Position numbers and translations under genes: made by a program
The notes under the pieces: generated by a model
Told to the model about the DNA's origin: nothing
Database searches by the model: none
The model's input: only the letters and a program-made list of their open reading frames with translations
Source of the DNA: Candidatus Solibacter sp.
Lineage (GTDB): Bacteria > Acidobacteriota > Terriglobia > Bryobacterales > Bryobacteraceae
DNA length: 15,920 bases
Direction of reading: 5' to 3'
Assembly: GCA_017883345.1 (NCBI GenBank)
Contig: JADGNT010000022.1
Span: 1-15,920, forward strand
In this document: positions 4,148 to 15,920 of the stretch, one piece after another
Layout: every line of letters starts with the position of its first letter
Position numbering within the stretch: the first letter of the stretch is position 1

Positions 4148-5700
4148 TGACATGCTCCCACCGGGGCCGGCAGCGACTCCGGAATGGCCCATTCGTCAAA
4201 CTTGCCCTGGCGGATGGCGCGGGCGAGGTTCTCAATATCGATGGAGAGCGGGCGGTCTTCGCCGAGCGGCGGAGCGATGGTGCGGACCACGTCGCGCACG
4301 CGGCGCAATTCCGGACCCGGCTCGAAAGCTTCGCGATAGCGTAGGGCTTCCGTGGCGGCCAGCAGTTCGATGGCGGCGATGTACTCGCCGTTCTCCACGA
4401 TGGTGCGCAGCTTGAGGGCGGCGGTCATGCCCATGGAAACGTGATCCTCCTGGCCGCCGGAGGTGGGCACGTTATCGACGCTCGCGGGATGCGCCAGCAC
4501 CTTGCACTCGTTGAGCAGCGAGACGGCGGCGACGTGGGCGATCATGAAGCCGCTGCTGAGGCCGGGATGAGCGGCGAGAAACGCGGGGAGCCCCTGGTTG
4601 AGGTCGGGATTGACCAGGCGATCGATGCGGCGTTCGGCGACGCCAGCGAGGGTGGTGAGGGCGATGGCGGCGGTATCGAAGGCGAGAGCGAGCGGCGCAC
4701 CGTGGAAGTTGCCGCCGGAGAGCACGGCACCGGATTCGGCGAAGACGAGCGGGTTATCGGTGGCGGAGCCGGTCTCGATCTCGACGCTGCCGGTTGCGAA
4801 GCGCAGTGCGCCGCGCACCGCGCCGTGCACTTGCGGCATGCAGCGCAGGCTGTAGGCGTCCTGCACGCGGGCGGGAGCGGTGCGGCGGTCGGGCGCGACG
4901 TCGCTCCCCTCCAAGAGTGCGCGCAGGCGGGCGGCGACGATGCCCTGTCCGGGATGCGGGCGCGCAGCGTGTATGCGCTGGTCGAAGGCGACGGGGGTGC
5001 CGAGCAGGGCGGCGAGAGTCATGGCGCCCGCGACGTCGGCGAGGCCGGCGAGGCGTGTGGCCCGCCACAGGGCGAGCGCGCCCACGGCGGTGAGCGCCTG
5101 GGTTCCATTGAGCAGCGCGAGACCTTCCTTGGCTTCAAGGCGGACGGGCTCGATGCCGGCGCGCTCTAGCGCAGTGCGGCCCGGCATGCGCTCGCCGCGA
5201 TAGATGGCTTCGCCTTCGCCGATGACACAGAGCGCGAGGTGGGCGAGCGGGGCGAGATCGCCAGAGGCGCCGACCGAGCCTTTCGAGGGGATCACGGGAT
5301 GCACGCCGCGATTCAACATGAGCGTGAGGGTCTGGGCAACGAGGGGGCGCACGCCGCTAAGCCCGCGCGCCAGCGTGTTGGCGCGCAGGGCCACGATGAC
5401 GCGCGTCTCAGGCTCGGATAGCGGTACAGAGAGCCCGCAGGCGTGGCTGCGCACCAGGTTGAGTTGCAGGCGAGCGAGTTCGCCGTTAGAGATGCGCACC
5501 TCGCAGAGTTTGCCAAAGCCGGTATTGATGCCGTAGACGGGGAGGCAACCTTCGGCGACGCGGCGCACCACGGCGCGCGAGGCGTCCATTTGGGCGATGG
5601 CGGCGGGAGAGATCTGAACGCGGACGGACCCAGAGGGTACCCCGTCCGCGATCCGAGCGATTTCGTGCAATGAAAGAGGCTGACCGCTGAGTTGCAGCAT
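4144..5700 (-). CDS. hutH: Histidine ammonia-lyase
   Basis: First step of histidine degradation: elimination of ammonia from L-histidine to give trans-urocanate. The 518-residue product carries the MIO-forming Ala-Ser-Gly in [14 protein letters not shown] (ASG at 145-147, matching the usual position). It also has [10 protein letters not shown] near 56, GNFHGAPLA, and the C-terminal QEDHVSMGM block. The frame is open back to 5772, but that start would overlap the divergent regulator gene and add 24 residues unlike HutH. The ATG at 5698-5700 ([11 protein letters not shown]) gives the normal length. No strong Shine-Dalgarno is seen before it. It is the first gene of the operon and overlaps hutU by four bases. 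Confidence 0.95.
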
Positions 5701-10461: not shown

Positions 10462-11103
10462 ATGCGGGCGATCGGGATCATGCTGCTCATCCCGTGGGTG
10501 GGCGGCGCGCAAGCGGGGTACCCTCCGGGTCCGCCGGAGAATGCGGCGCTGGTGCGCGGAGTGCTGCTGGAGTGCGATGCGCGCTCGGCGGGCGAGTTGA
10601 GCATCCGCGCCGGCGACAACCGGGTACTGCGTTATCAGTTCGACCGCAAGACTTACGTGGAACGCGAGGAGCACCTGACGGAGGCTGCGCGGCTGGTAGC
10701 GGGCGAGACGGTGGAAGTGCTCTCCGACGCCGTCGCCGGGTACGCGCTGCGCTACGCGCGAACCATCCACGTCATCGAGCGCGCGCTACCGCCCCGGCCC
10801 CAGACGCTGGGCAGGCTGCGCGCGTACGACCCCAAAACGGAACCGGCGATTCGAGCGGGAAACATCACGTTTGCCGGAGTGGTATTCCGCTTGAACAGCC
10901 AGCGGGTGGTACTGCACACCCGCGAGGCGGGCGACCTGAGCATCCTGCTGCGCAAGGACACGCGTTACCTGGCCGACGGGCAGTTGGTGGATGCCGAGTC
11001 GCTAAAACCCAACATGCGCGTCTTTGTGCGGGCGGGCAAGGATCTCTACAACGAGGTAGAAGCCTACCAGGTGATTTGGGGCACGATTCTCACTCCACGC
11101 TGA
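10462..11103 (+). CDS. Secreted protein with two DUF5666-like repeats
   Basis: A 213-residue protein with a signal peptide (MRAIGIMLLIPWVGGAQA). Two related beta-rich blocks follow: about 31-107 (VRGVLLECDARSAGELSIRA ... VAGETVEVLSD) and about 135-210 (FAGVVFRLNSQRVVLHTREA ... LKPNMRVFVRAG). The pattern (a G-x-V strand, a statement strand, then Q/E-L-x-x-G-x-x-V) resembles DUF5666, a small OB-like extracytoplasmic domain of unknown function. An ATG 18 bases upstream (10444) is in frame, but AGGAG at 10449-10453 sits eight bases before 10462, which decides the start. It converges on the M20 peptidase gene with a 10-base gap. The function is unknown. Confidence 0.65.
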   Translation: MRAIGIMLLIPWVGGAQAGYPPGPPENAALVRGVLLECDARSAGELSIRAGDNRVLRYQFDRKTYVEREEHLTEAARLVAGETVEVLSDAVAGYALRYARTIHVIERALPPRPQTLGRLRAYDPKTEPAIRAGNITFAGVVFRLNSQRVVLHTREAGDLSILLRKDTRYLADGQLVDAESLKPNMRVFVRAGKDLYNEVEAYQVIWGTILTPR

Positions 11104-12384: not shown

Positions 12385-12477
12385 TGACCGAATGATGAAC
12401 ATGTTCGTCCGGCGGGGTCGCGCCGTGTGTGCAGGACGGTCTCCGGGGCGGAATAACGCGGCGGCGCGGAGGAAGAA

Positions 12478-12509
12478 TGCCCCCTATGCCGCATGCGGCA
12501 TAGGGGGCA
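12478..12509. repeat. Perfect 32-base palindrome at the left boundary of the element
   Basis: The sequence from TGCCCCC to GGGGGCA is its own reverse complement over 32 bases, with TATGCCGC ATGCGGCATA in the middle. Its right seven bases (GGGGGCA, 12503-12509) are also the first seven bases of the terminal inverted repeat. Its left seven (TGCCCCC, 12478-12484) equal the last seven bases of the window (15914-15920). It may therefore be the target, a junction left by a circular form, or an outer recombinase site. Confidence 0.8.
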
Positions 12510-12536
12510 CTATGCCGCTTCCCGGACTATGCCGCG
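12503..12536 (+). repeat. Left terminal inverted repeat of the RIT element
   Basis: A perfect 34-base match to the reverse complement of 15887-15920. It contains two tandem copies of ACTATGCCGC (12509-12518 and 12526-12535), 17 bases apart, beginning GGGGGC. The match stops at 12537. Confidence 0.93.
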
Positions 12537-12579
12537 GGGATTAGAACGAACTGGTCCAAGCCCCTCAGAATGCAGGGTT

Positions 12580-12593
12580 GCTGGCGCGCCAGC
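12580..12593. other. Perfect GC-rich palindrome downstream of the third recombinase gene
   Basis: GCTGGCGCGCCAGC is self-complementary over 14 bases. It lies 35 bases beyond the stop of the last recombinase gene, inside the left end. A wider pair CCAAGCC (12556-12562) / GGCTTGG (12619-12625) encloses it. It could help terminate the trio transcript or place the recombinase sites. A similar GC-rich palindrome (GGCGCGCGCGCC, 15871-15882) sits in the right end. Confidence 0.4.
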
Positions 12594-12597
12594 CGTT

Positions 12598-12617
12598 CAA
12601 CATGCGGCATAGTCCGG
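12598..12617 (+). promoter_or_regulatory. Inner recombinase-type site, left end
   Basis: CAACATGCGGCATAGTCCGG matches 15882-15901 at the right end in 19 of 20 bases, in direct orientation. Its last 14 bases (12604-12617) are a perfect inverted repeat of 12522-12535 in the left terminal repeat. It lies just after the stop of the third recombinase gene. Probably a binding site for one of the recombinases; this is inferred from repetition only. Confidence 0.6.
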
Positions 12618-12627
12618 AGGCTTGGGA

Positions 12628-13638
12628 TCAGAGTTGTTTGAGGAAGGCCAGCAACTCGTCGTCCGGTTGATAGCGTTTGGGAGCGCCTTTGACCGGGTTG
12701 GTCTTGGCCAAGGCTTGTTCCTTCAACGCAAGATCGGCGTCGAGATAGATCTGGGTGGTTTCGACGGACTCGTGGCCGAGCCAAAGCGCAATCACCGCTC
12801 GATCTACACCGGCCTGTAGCAACTCCATGGCAGCGGCGTGCCGCAGGACATGTGGCGAGACTCGTTTCTTGCGCAGTGAAGCGCAGTTTTTCCGCGCCTG
12901 CGCCACGTGGCGTGCCAGCAAGTGCTGAACACCATCGGCACTCAAAGGTCCGCCTCGGGTGCTGGGAAACAGCGTTTTAGAGTCTTCTCTGCCTGGCTCC
13001 CGAATCCAATGCTTCAGGACCGCGACCGTAGGCTTGGCCAAGGGAGTACAACGTTGCTTTCGTCCTTTTCCCCGGCAACGCACATGTGCGCCGGCTCCGA
13101 GCGTGACGTCCTCGTGCCGCCACGCGGTCATCTCGCTCAATCGCAGGCCGGTCTGAACAGCAGTGAGCAGAAAAGCGTGGTCGCGGCGTCCCAGCCACTT
13201 CGTTCGATTCGGCGGGGTACCCTCTGGGTCCAGCAGCGCCTCGATCTCTGGCCGGGTCGGAAAGCCCACCAGTGCGCGTCGCTGCCGTTGGTTGGGAATC
13301 GCCAGCACGCGTTGGATGATGCCGCTGTGCGCCGGCGCTTCCAGCGAGGCGTAGCGGAAAAACGACCGGATGGCCGTCAAACGCAGGTTCCGGCTTCTGG
13401 CGCCATTGTGCCGGCGGTTTTCCAGATCTTCCAGGAACGCCCCGATCAAAGAGGCATCCAGATCGTCCAGCCCCAACTGAGAGGGGGCCTTGCGTAGCCG
13501 TTTCTGGGCGAACTGCAACAGCAGGCGGAACGTGTCGCGATAGGAGGCGATGGTGTGAGGGCTGACTTTCCGCTGCGTCATCAAACGGGTAGTGAAGAAC
13601 GACTGCAACAAGGCAGGAAGATTAGCGGGATCCCGCAT
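12628..13638 (-). CDS. ritC: Tyrosine recombinase, third gene of the RIT trio (RitC)
   Basis: A 336-residue site-specific recombinase. The N-terminal SAM-like core-binding domain spans about 5-105 (HTIASYRDTFRLLLQFA) and the catalytic domain about 125-310. The catalytic set is complete: R166 in TGLRLSEM, K191 in RGKGRKQRCTPL, H263 and R266 in HVLRH, H289 in LGHES, and the nucleophile Y298 in TTQIYLD. ATG at 13636-13638 overlaps the second recombinase gene by 17 bases and has GGGAGG six bases upstream, so translation is coupled. In RIT elements all three proteins are thought to act together; which DNA site each uses is unknown. The name follows gene order in the element. Confidence 0.93.
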   Translation of the reverse strand: MRDPANLPALLQSFFTTRLMTQRKVSPHTIASYRDTFRLLLQFAQKRLRKAPSQLGLDDLDASLIGAFLEDLENRRHNGARSRNLRLTAIRSFFRYASLEAPAHSGIIQRVLAIPNQRQRRALVGFPTRPEIEALLDPEGTPPNRTKWLGRRDHAFLLTAVQTGLRLSEMTAWRHEDVTLGAGAHVRCRGKGRKQRCTPLAKPTVAVLKHWIREPGREDSKTLFPSTRGGPLSADGVQHLLARHVAQARKNCASLRKKRVSPHVLRHAAAMELLQAGVDRAVIALWLGHESVETTQIYLDADLALKEQALAKTNPVKGAPKRYQPDDELLAFLKQL

Positions 13639-14566
13639 GCAAGGCCTCCCATCGTTTCTCCAGCCTCTTGGCGGCTGCTCCCAACAGTTCGGGAGTGCCG
13701 GTCAGATACCAATAGGTGTCGGTAACATGGGCATGCCCGAGATAGGTGGACAAGATGGGCAAGCGCCGCTTGGGATCCTCCCCATTGCGATACCAGCGCA
13801 ACAAAGTCTCGACCGCAAATCGGTGTCGAAAATCGTGCAAGCGCGGGCCACGGCTGGCATCCACAGCACGCAATCCAATCTGTCGAGACAGGATGTAGAA
13901 CGCCCGGTGGACCTCGCCTTTATCCAGCCGGTTGCCGTTCAGCTTTACCAGGAAATGTCCCTCGGCGCGCACGCCAAAGCGCTCGTCCCGGCGTTTCGCG
14001 TAGTCGGCCAGGACCTTACAAGTCGAGGCATGCAGCGGCACCAGACGGGACTTTCCAAACTTGGCCCCTCGAATCGTGAGAATGCCTTCGGACCAATCCA
14101 TATCCCCAGCTCGGAGGCTGAGCGCCTCACCCAGCCGCAGGCCTGTGACCGCCAGCAACCCGAACAGACAGTGGTAGGTCCAGGGCCGTAGAGGGTCGAT
14201 GGAAGGCCGGGTCTTAGCAGCCTTCAGCAGCGTTCGGATTTCGTGATCGGAATAGAAGTAGGGCTGAGCGCGTTGGGGCCGGTAGGGCAGCAGACCCAGT
14301 GGCGGAACCTCTGTCGAGGGATCCGTCGCACTCCAGTGCCGGGCGAAGCCACGCACGATGCTGAGCCGCGCCGCCCATTCACCGGGTGTGTGATGGGCCT
14401 CTTGCGTGGCCCATTCCAGTGCCAGGTTTACGGTAATGCGGGCACTGCGTTTTCGTGCCAGGAATGACACGAACTCCCGCAGCCCGGCCTCATGTCGAAC
14501 CAGCTTGAACCCCAGGCCACGGCGCATCGTCAGGTAGTCTCCGACAGCCTTGCTAAGGCGATTCAT
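13622..14566 (-). CDS. ritB: Tyrosine recombinase, second gene of the RIT trio (RitB)
   Basis: A 314-residue site-specific recombinase. The N-terminal DNA-binding domain covers about 5-95 and the catalytic domain about 105-300. Catalytic residues: R144 in TGLRLGEA, Lys in the RGAKFGKSRLVPL hairpin (K169 or K172), H244 and R247 in HDFRHRFA, H278 in LGHAHV, and Y287 in TYWYL. The set is intact. ATG at 14564-14566 overlaps the stop of the first recombinase gene as ATGA and is preceded by AGGGGGTGG, giving strong coupling. It is the shortest of the three, as expected for the middle gene of a RIT trio. Confidence 0.93.
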   Translation of the reverse strand: MNRLSKAVGDYLTMRRGLGFKLVRHEAGLREFVSFLARKRSARITVNLALEWATQEAHHTPGEWAARLSIVRGFARHWSATDPSTEVPPLGLLPYRPQRAQPYFYSDHEIRTLLKAAKTRPSIDPLRPWTYHCLFGLLAVTGLRLGEALSLRAGDMDWSEGILTIRGAKFGKSRLVPLHASTCKVLADYAKRRDERFGVRAEGHFLVKLNGNRLDKGEVHRAFYILSRQIGLRAVDASRGPRLHDFRHRFAVETLLRWYRNGEDPKRRLPILSTYLGHAHVTDTYWYLTGTPELLGAAAKRLEKRWEALHAGSR

Positions 14567-15801
14567 CGACCACCCCCTGGCCAGGGCAACGCCAAGGTGT
14601 GCAAGGCGGTGACATCTACTTTGGCGTAGATCGCTGTCGTGTTTGGGCTTTGCTGCCGCGGCAGTTCGCCAATCTCATCCAGCGAGCCTCCCTGCCGAAG
14701 CAGGCTCGTGGCTAGAGAATGGCGAAGCACATGGGCGCCGGTGTGCGCCGACTCCACGCCGGCATGTTTCAGGGCGCGCCTAACGAGCGAGGAGATCGTC
14801 GATGAGTTCCCAAAGCCGACTAACGGAGCCCGGTGGCGAAGGAACACTCTGCGGGTGGCCGACCGCGGGCGGTCGTGACGTAAATAGGCGGCAAGGGCCG
14901 CGCCTACGTCGGCGGCCAACGGCAGTTGGGCCGATTTCCCGCCCTTTCCGCGAAGGGTAATCTGACCCGTGCTCCAATCGATATCGTCTAAGCTCAGCCC
15001 CACAACCTCCCCAGCGCGTACGCCGAGCCTGGCGAGCAGCAGCAAGATCGCATGGTTCCGCCGTCCGACGGACGTCGTTTGATCGCAGCACTCCAGAATA
15101 CGCTCCACCGTGGCAGCCGGAAGAAACCTCGGAAGCGTGGAAAGCGACCAGTTGGGGACCGTGGGGACGCAAGCAGCAAGATCGGTAGCGATTGCTCCGC
15201 GGTGTCGCCGATAGCGAAAGAAAGACCGAAGCGCCGTTACCATCAGCCTGGCCCGCATAGGACTCAACTGACGCGCGTGACGCATCACGAATCCGGTGAC
15301 GTGCGGTGCGCGTAGCATGGCGAAGTTCGGAGCCCTGTTGTGAAATCGCTCGGACAAGAACTGCTCCATGACGGCAACGTAGTGGAGCAGCGTTAATGGG
15401 GACAGACCGCGTTCCTGCAATAGGTAGCGCTGGAAGTCGGCGACGATCCTGGCTTGGGCGTTGTCCGTGACCGGTGGCTGGTGCGGCTTCACAACGCCTT
15501 TCTGGCGAAGCATGGTCAACAGTCGCTGCAAGGTCTTCGGATCGCCTCTGCGAACCCGCCGCGGCCGACCGCGAAGTCGCAGAAATCGATCCACAACCTT
15601 GCTGTCCAGCGCGTGGACATCAATGTTTTTCTGCTTCCGCCACCGGCTGAAATCGGCGATTGCGACAATCTGCTGTCTGATCGAGTCGTGACTATAGCCC
15701 TGTTCGGCTACACCGGCCGCATCGGCATCGAGGTGTTCACTCAAAGGCCCTTGGCGAAGCCGTTCAATCGTGCTTGAGAAGGTGAAGAGTTGGTTTATCA
15801 C
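14563..15801 (-). CDS. ritA: Tyrosine recombinase, first gene of the RIT trio (RitA), His-to-Gln at a catalytic position
   Basis: A 412-residue site-specific recombinase with a longer N-terminal region (1-110) before a SAM-like domain (about 113-205) and the catalytic domain (about 222-405). Present: R262 in LGVRAGEV, K286 in RGKGGKSAQLPL, H357 and R360 in HVLRHSLAT, and nucleophile Y392 in TTAIYAKVD. Nine residues before the Tyr, where His or Trp is expected, the protein has Gln (Q383 in ELPRQQSPNTTAIY). The Gln codon CAG is one base away from His. The start is GTG at 15799-15801 without a convincing ribosome site; no in-frame ATG occurs before residue 97, which would be too late. A copy of ACTATGCCGC (15831-15840) lies about 30 bases upstream of the start, so recombinase binding could repress the operon. 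Confidence 0.9.
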   Translation of the reverse strand: MINQLFTFSSTIERLRQGPLSEHLDADAAGVAEQGYSHDSIRQQIVAIADFSRWRKQKNIDVHALDSKVVDRFLRLRGRPRRVRRGDPKTLQRLLTMLRQKGVVKPHQPPVTDNAQARIVADFQRYLLQERGLSPLTLLHYVAVMEQFLSERFHNRAPNFAMLRAPHVTGFVMRHARQLSPMRARLMVTALRSFFRYRRHRGAIATDLAACVPTVPNWSLSTLPRFLPAATVERILECCDQTTSVGRRNHAILLLLARLGVRAGEVVGLSLDDIDWSTGQITLRGKGGKSAQLPLAADVGAALAAYLRHDRPRSATRRVFLRHRAPLVGFGNSSTISSLVRRALKHAGVESAHTGAHVLRHSLATSLLRQGGSLDEIGELPRQQSPNTTAIYAKVDVTALHTLALPWPGGGR

Positions 15802-15830
15802 TCTTCCAGAGTGCCAAGCAGGGAACCAAA

Positions 15831-15840
15831 ACTATGCCGC
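15831..15840 (-). promoter_or_regulatory. Inner recombinase-type site, right end, upstream of ritA
   Basis: ACTATGCCGC, the reverse complement of the GCGGCATAGT core found twice in the right terminal repeat, so it faces them as an inverted copy. It is followed by GGCGCCGCAGTCC, which resembles a degenerate opposite copy. Being about 30 bases before the ritA GTG, it overlaps the only space for a ritA promoter. Confidence 0.55.
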
Positions 15841-15886
15841 GGCGCCGCAGTCCAAACGCCTATGAATGGCGGCGCGCGCGCCAACA

Positions 15887-15920
15887 CGCGGCATAGTCCG
15901 GGAAGCGGCATAGTGCCCCC
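15887..15920 (-). repeat. Right terminal inverted repeat of the RIT element
   Basis: The perfect reverse complement of 12503-12536. It contains two tandem GCGGCATAGT cores (15888-15897 and 15905-15914), 17 bases apart, and ends TGCCCCC at the window edge. It may continue beyond the window. Confidence 0.93.

Follow-up and report, generated by a model that had tools for sequence, protein, structure and literature searches.

The 15,920-nt stretch of DNA analysed here, the window, is the entire contig JADGNT010000022.1 of a Candidatus Solibacter sp. metagenome-assembled genome (MAG; G000, 890 contigs, 79% complete), and it carries at its right end a RIT element, a member of a known family in which three tyrosine recombinase genes, ritA, ritB and ritC (the trio), lie between inverted ends. 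The preferred reading, with a probability of about 0.7, is that the element consists of two segments, the trio and a 20-bp palindrome (P), which would form a circle and integrate by tyrosine-recombinase strand exchange across a 6-bp sequence (o) into a target R.o.L, i.e. two half-targets on either side of o. What sequence comparison supplies for this reading is the anatomy of the junctions, the 6-bp overlaps, the two target halves, target copies that are still empty, and a rule that ties P to one of the two halves. The features of the window copy are listed below by coordinates and strand; counts for the whole host genome refer to this MAG and to matches with up to 3 mismatches unless stated otherwise.

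12440–12483 (+): L-half of a dispersed host repeat, the target; up to 45 nt are common to other copies and the last 6 nt are o (12440 is the start of the query only, not a mapped edge of the repeat)
12478–12483 (+): o, left copy, the target crossover sequence TGCCCC, preceded by the L-half
12484–12503 (+): P, 20-bp perfect palindrome CTATGCCGCATGCGGCATAG, element segment, a single occurrence in the genome
12504–12509 (+): X2, spacer of 6 bp that separates P from M1; its sequence GGGGCA is o in reverse complement
12510–15913: trio segment, from M1 to M1', with two end motifs 17 bp apart on both sides
12510–12518 (+): M1, outer end motif, GCGGCATAG on the minus strand and CTATGCCGC on the plus strand
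12527–12535 (+): M2, the inner of the two end motifs, at a distance of 17 bp from M1, CTATGCCGC again
12604–12612 (+): the end motif for a third time, inverted, on the ritC side
12628–13638 (−): ritC, tyrosine recombinase of 336 aa, catalytic set complete, in-frame 18-nt host micro-repeat at 13213–13230
13622–14566 (−): ritB, tyrosine recombinase of 314 aa, catalytic set complete
14563–15801 (−): ritA, tyrosine recombinase of 412 aa; R262, H357xxR360, H361 and Y392 present, Pro381-x-Gln383 at the box III Leu-x-His
15832–15840 (−): the end motif for a third time, inverted, on the ritA side
15888–15896 (−): M2', end motif on the ritA side
15905–15913 (−): M1', end motif on the ritA side
15914–15919 (+): o, second copy TGCCCC, at the right end; the contig finishes one base later
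15920: last base common to both continuations that the model allows beyond the contig, the host R-half CACGAATGG or P

A sequence-only reading of the same DNA had proposed a complete RIT element at 12503 to 15920, with three overlapping recombinase genes, near-complete catalytic sets and no cargo inside a perfect 34-base inverted repeat, and much of this description stands. The three minus-strand open reading frames (ORFs) overlap by 4 and 17 bp, their products all match the Pfam family Phage_integrase, and each falls in its own class when aligned with 129 RitA, 144 RitB and 105 RitC proteins; the order ritA-ritB-ritC is maintained in plasmid relatives. The ORF list holds no gene besides the trio between the ends, only antisense or short ORFs, and in Rfam no family reaches the gathering threshold within the window. 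RitB and RitC have complete catalytic sets, and RitA has the box I Arg, the HxxR and the Tyr, with Gln in place of the box III His. The inverted repeat (12503–12536 and 15887–15920) is 34 nt long and 100% complementary; at up to 3 mismatches it has two matches in the window (0.00 expected, 200 shuffles) and none elsewhere in the genome. With inverted ends that read as 34 bp, about 27 bp of them element, and a total of 3.4 kb, the element has the ends (about 28–34 bp) and the size (near 3.5 kb) of a RIT, and the three genes between its ends differ from the four conserved genes by which GInts and strand-biased circularising elements (SEs) are recognized. Nothing suggests that it is part of a larger integrated element; its left flank is the dispersed host repeat. 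The search for other copies that had been advised gave no second copy of the element in this genome; the search for empty sites succeeded.

It is the empty sites that change the extent of the element. Uninterrupted copies of the host repeat, GGAAGAATGCCCCC|ACGAATGGGGGCATGGCAGCC, occur 83 times in this genome (reversed control 0) and read GGAAGAA.TGCCCC.CACGAATGGGGGCATGGCAGCC without a break, whereas the window copy is broken directly after TGCCCC. Since the uninterrupted copies carry them, the 7 outermost bases of the 34-bp repeat can be assigned to the target, as its crossover sequence plus one base. The exactness of the repeat is confirmed and its role as the ends is not: P lies outside its left arm, and the left boundary of the inserted DNA lies at 12478–12503, outside the position first given. 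P belongs to the element and not to the host, because it is single in the genome, missing from the empty copies and identical in the near relatives L115 and L116, whose targets differ; a host origin of P was considered and is ruled out by the same observations. The host repeat itself (GGAAGAATGCCCCCACGAATGGGGGCATGGCAGCC, at window 12440–12483 and 83 other places) is a REP-like hairpin that has expanded in this species: two of eight other genomes of the genus have 2 and 1 copies and six have 0. The insertion is later than the spread of the repeat; of the nine genus genomes searched, that of this species alone has it in abundance.

The simplest alternative is an ordinary inverted-repeat element, whose true ends would be the 34-bp repeats, which would move like a transposon, and for which P would be a chance palindrome or part of a host hairpin. 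The exactness of the inverted repeat over 34 bp suits it, as do the RITs with 34-bp terminal inverted repeats described in the available part of PMC10214605. However, the outer 6–7 bp are present in the empty host copies, P is missing from those copies and common to relatives at other targets, and, in the survey described below, P is 20 bp long and stands 6 bp away in 58 of 60 cases. The empty copies already refute this alternative in large part, and it is considered very improbable.

In order to see whether the junctions of the window copy are general, relatives were collected from RitB matches among 151 genomes (35 with a match), PLSDB plasmids and 80 contig loci. Places with short flanks or no repeat had been removed before the 125 that were examined, of which 88 could be parsed to both trio ends; these lie on 86 distinct contigs (L066 is the same as L137, and L067 the same as L160). 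Their 176 ends comprise 30 that are cut by contig ends, 86 that pass directly into the flank and 60 with P, so that P is present at 60 of the 146 uncut ends. The commonest combination is one direct and one P end (42 trios), followed by direct ends on both sides (18, of which 16 are distinct) and P on both sides (4). The P halves resemble the inner motif more often than the outer one (of 118 halves, 59 are nearer to M2 and 20 nearer to M1, with 39 ties). By eye, 20-bp palindromes of other sequence were found at the place of P in L081, L083, L093, L095, L097, L098, L120 C and L123 A; they were not counted as P, and some of them stand among the unclassified direct ends. At 24 of the 30 cut ends, the contig stops 2–6 nt outside M1, which fits trios that occur in more than one context and is explained equally by the assembly of multi-copy sequence.

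The rule that carries the preferred reading concerns the target halves beside the two kinds of ends. It was scored on the ends whose flank measures 80 nt or more, of which 80 are direct and 58 have P (132 of the 138 flanks are distinct). The direct ends stand beside an HxxR half in 43 cases (40 distinct), an IS66 CK half in 9, LGHS in 3 and radC in 3, with 22 unclassified; read toward the element, they encode H-x-x-R and present the first two bases of the His codon at the junction. The P ends stand beside the opposite half of box II in 34 cases, IS66 ET in 7, LGHS in 2 and radC in 2, with 13 unclassified. No classified end, direct or P, has the wrong half, and a strict first test on box II alone (43 direct and 15 P ends) gave 0 crossed cases. 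When the flanks of the 42 direct/P pairs are joined, HxxR and H share a reading frame in 23, and in 22 this frame stays open for 20 codons or more to either side; SPHVIR|HSTAMHLLQ is an example, and other rejoined flanks meet at LGHS or HNHPSG|D. All five truncated flank genes tested match Phage_integrase. Judged from these flanks, the preferred targets are catalytic-motif codons in genes of mobile elements; HxxR|H in tyrosine recombinase genes is the most frequent, and many of these genes belong to other RITs. Among 46 N-halves (42 without duplicates), 13 are RitC-like and 3 RitB-like (2 distinct), so that RITs often insert into other RITs, while 14 score below the threshold of every Rit class and the shortness of the remaining 16 (13 distinct) does not allow an assignment. 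The loci L150, L151 and L184 form one RIT subgroup whose target in tyrosine recombinase genes is the LGHS box and not HxxRH. Six distinct direct/direct trios have HxxR on both sides (L066, L067, L110, L131, L161 and L170), and L103 has the same IS66 half on either side of the trio.

The rule was then applied to a held-out set of 14 plasmid RITs, fetched after the rule had been fixed and hand-chosen for spread from two 60-entry lists; 11 have both ends, L226, L231 and L233 have no clear end pair, and L236 C was read by eye. The 14 direct ends comprise 5 HxxR, 4 HExx and 5 unclassified, and the 8 P ends comprise 3 box II continuations, 4 HExx|H continuations and 1 unclassified, and the rule is contradicted by 0 in either group. 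The HExxH class was recognized only on seeing the held-out set, and the box II ends are accordingly the stricter test. Its members L235, L236, L238 and L239 are plasmid RITs of another subgroup in which genes are split at an HExxH motif; these genes are ArdC-like by annotation in L238 and L239 and annotated as single-stranded DNA-binding in L236, and recognized by the motif alone in L235. The direct ends L229 A, L230 A and L237 A lie beside stretches that look similar to each other (KLKTLC / NQKNLC).

The 6-bp sequences behave like crossover overlaps in these comparisons. On the two sides of an element, the o copies match exactly in 15 of 39 distinct pairs, as against a mean of 2.0 and a maximum of 8 after shuffling, and in 9 of those pairs X2 agrees with both. 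At 17 of 58 P ends, X2 and the o next to it are reverse complements, again with a shuffled mean of 2.0 and a maximum of 8. In the window copy, both o copies and X2 all agree. The same symmetry can be read in another manner, namely that P is a folded single-strand attachment site and that one strand is excised and reinserted, with replication completing the move, a route proposed for SEs and for integron cassettes. An o-P-X2 hairpin is possible (14-bp stem, DNA fold z −3.5), the 17 P ends in which X2 and o are complementary form one long palindrome, and SEs, which have 6-bp spacers, have been proposed to use a single-strand route (in the consulted part of PMC10214605). On the other hand, X2 and o differ in 41 of 58 P ends, so that a perfect long hairpin is not required, and double-strand core sites already account for the half-target rule; the single-strand route is held to be unlikely. 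A palindromic junction of the telomere-resolvase type was also considered and has no support beyond the symmetry.

The two-segment model proposes the following course of events. The first segment would be the 3.4-kb trio with two identical, inverted M1 ends, and the second the 20-bp P, also with two identical ends. The arms would fall into two classes, one formed by the target R-half and P and the other by the target L-half and M1, such that each classified junction joins one of each across 6 bp. The trio could not close on itself, because both of its ends are M1; P, with two arms of the other class, would close it, and a circle would form only as trio plus P. Integration of this putative circle into R.o.L would yield R.o.[trio].X2.[P].o.L, and the insertion of one circle would thereby account for the arrangement met most often, in which a trio has a direct end and a P end (42 of 88). 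A remaining site between P and trio could recombine with a second target and leave the trio between two R-halves, the form to which the six direct/direct trios with HxxR on both sides, and L103, would correspond. That there is a circle, in what order strands are exchanged and how recombinases are matched to arms are inferred. For the window copy, the contig stops exactly at the right arm (15920) and the host flank on the right side lies outside the available sequence; the next bases are predicted to be CACGAATGGGGGCAT in the integrated form or CTATGCC in case of P.

The target of the window copy looks like a weak mimic of box II, a box-II-like stretch within a non-coding hairpin repeat. With a matrix built from 40 box II R-halves, its predicted R-half scores 8.34, in the top 7 of 31,796 window positions. 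The nearest relatives, L115, L116 and that of G008, another genome of the genus, are inserted in box II genes. The RitB of the window is 94% identical to that of L115, which comes from a MAG labelled Gemmatimonadetes; transfer across phyla would be one reading of this, but the latter contig is 5 kb long, and such contigs can be mis-binned.

The state of the window copy bears on how much can be learned from it. The box III His is present in 128 of 129 aligned RitA proteins, and only the window copy has Gln; box III of three near relatives reads Leu-x-His, and the window has Pro381-x-Gln383, two substitutions. In ritC, the micro-repeat at 13213–13230 stands where the relatives have two alanine codons. 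This 18-nt sequence, GACCCAGAGGGTACCCCG, is a micro-repeat dispersed in the genome which, in ritC, has become part of a coding gene: it has 156 places in this genome at up to 1 mismatch (reversed control 0), in the window at 13213–13230 and 5627–5644 with a near copy at 10513–10532, while no place was found in three of the nine genus genomes searched and none in G008. The RitA changes and the micro-repeat point to residence and may mean inactivity, and the copy, which entered after the spread of the hairpin repeat, has been altered since. The suggestion that identical ends indicate a recent or still mobile copy is accordingly not supported; identity of the outer bases would follow from the mode of integration, and the RitA substitutions and the ritC insertion speak for residence. 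The window copy could even be a dead remnant that is uninformative on movement, for which the odds come near to even. The Pro-x-Gln in RitA, with its unique Gln, and the in-frame host micro-repeat in ritC favour such a remnant, but all three frames are open with the catalytic Tyr in each, the ends are intact, and RitA diverges from the three relatives by 14–16%, not above the 14–20% among the relatives themselves; a faster decay of RitA was not seen in this comparison.

Several points weigh against the two-segment reading. The window copy may not move at all, because RitA box III is damaged, and its R.o.M1 junction is a prediction, the right flank being beyond the contig; the score of 8.34 for its R-half compares with a median of 17.5 for known R-halves (lowest −1.7). 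In the survey, 37 of the 125 places were left out for want of a clear end pair, 35 of 138 ends are unclassified (22 of 80 direct, 13 of 58 P), and the looser P-side pattern as well as the IS66, radC, LGHS and HExxH motifs were picked after the data had been seen. Some of the ‘direct’ ends without a class (L097 A, L098 C, L120 C, L123 A and perhaps L177 A) look by eye like P ends with a variant motif that the parser missed, and the count of direct/direct trios is too high for this reason. The o sequences are unlike in 24 of 39 pairs; overlaps that differ may have been exchanged, or the sequences may have changed later. Neither a circle nor an excision product has been seen, and the expected by-product, P between two L-halves and no trio, is absent among 57 P-like palindromes found with one pattern in the loci collected; the 3 listed as lacking a matching M1 proved to be ordinary ends in which M1 is atypical.

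Taken across the sampled relatives, the two-segment anatomy and the apparent targeting of catalytic codons are the part of this work that is of interest and directly testable. A broader generalization is put forward tentatively, at less than even odds: RITs would be two-segment elements with three kinds of half-sites (M1, the P/R class and the target L-half), specialized in the active-site codons of enzymes of rival mobile elements. If this is true, three kinds of half-sites would explain the need for three recombinases, and why the trio needs P for a circle. The targets HxxR|H in recombinases, HExx|H in ArdC-like proteins and HNHPSG|D in RadC would then mean that RITs spread by disabling rivals, other RITs included, by seeking out the catalytic codons of competing mobile elements. 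If the P site recombined with a second target, the RIT would come to lie between two N-halves, and each move could thus also rearrange the replicon. P would also be a piece required in any attempt to make a RIT jump in the laboratory.

These points touch on matters raised in the literature, as far as the accessible portions of the articles go. A passage in PMC3414803 considers a need for three recombinases difficult to explain and mentions, without further analysis, a 28–9 bp inverted repeat and an overlapping palindromic sequence; a table in PMC10214605 gives target specificity, empty site and movement of RITs as not tested; and PMC8138268 notes two core-binding domains in RitA, while ‘RIT’ is used in a different sense in PMC12306157. 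The P segment, the 6-bp rule and the HxxR|H target are unstated in the available parts of PMC3414803, PMC10214605, PMC8138268 and PMC2864759; Ricker 2013 and Van Houdt 2009 may contain parts of them. The present data provide a target rule, a 6-bp crossover and a second segment for RITs.

Among other known systems, Tn916-like elements integrate by means of coupling sequences, whereby a short overlap derived from the flank travels with the element, a likeness to the model proposed here. They have one integrase with an excisionase, unlike the RIT trio, and are not known to have inverted identical ends or a second segment. SEs and GInts share with RITs the use of several tyrosine recombinases, and SEs carry along a 6-bp spacer; they differ in having four conserved genes as against three here, SE ends are 13–19 bp long, and the consulted part of PMC10214605, the source for this comparison, describes no second segment. 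The closest likeness is to the RITs of Cupriavidus metallidurans CH34, Rhizobium and Aromatoleum aromaticum EbN1, which have the same ritA-ritB-ritC order, overlapping genes, a size of about 3.4 kb and inverted ends. The gene overlaps of known RITs are given as four to eight in the text available, as compared with 4 and 17 bp in the window, and known insertions lie in an IS66-type transposase gene and in radC (in the part of PMC2864759 consulted), whereas the window copy lies in a non-coding hairpin repeat.

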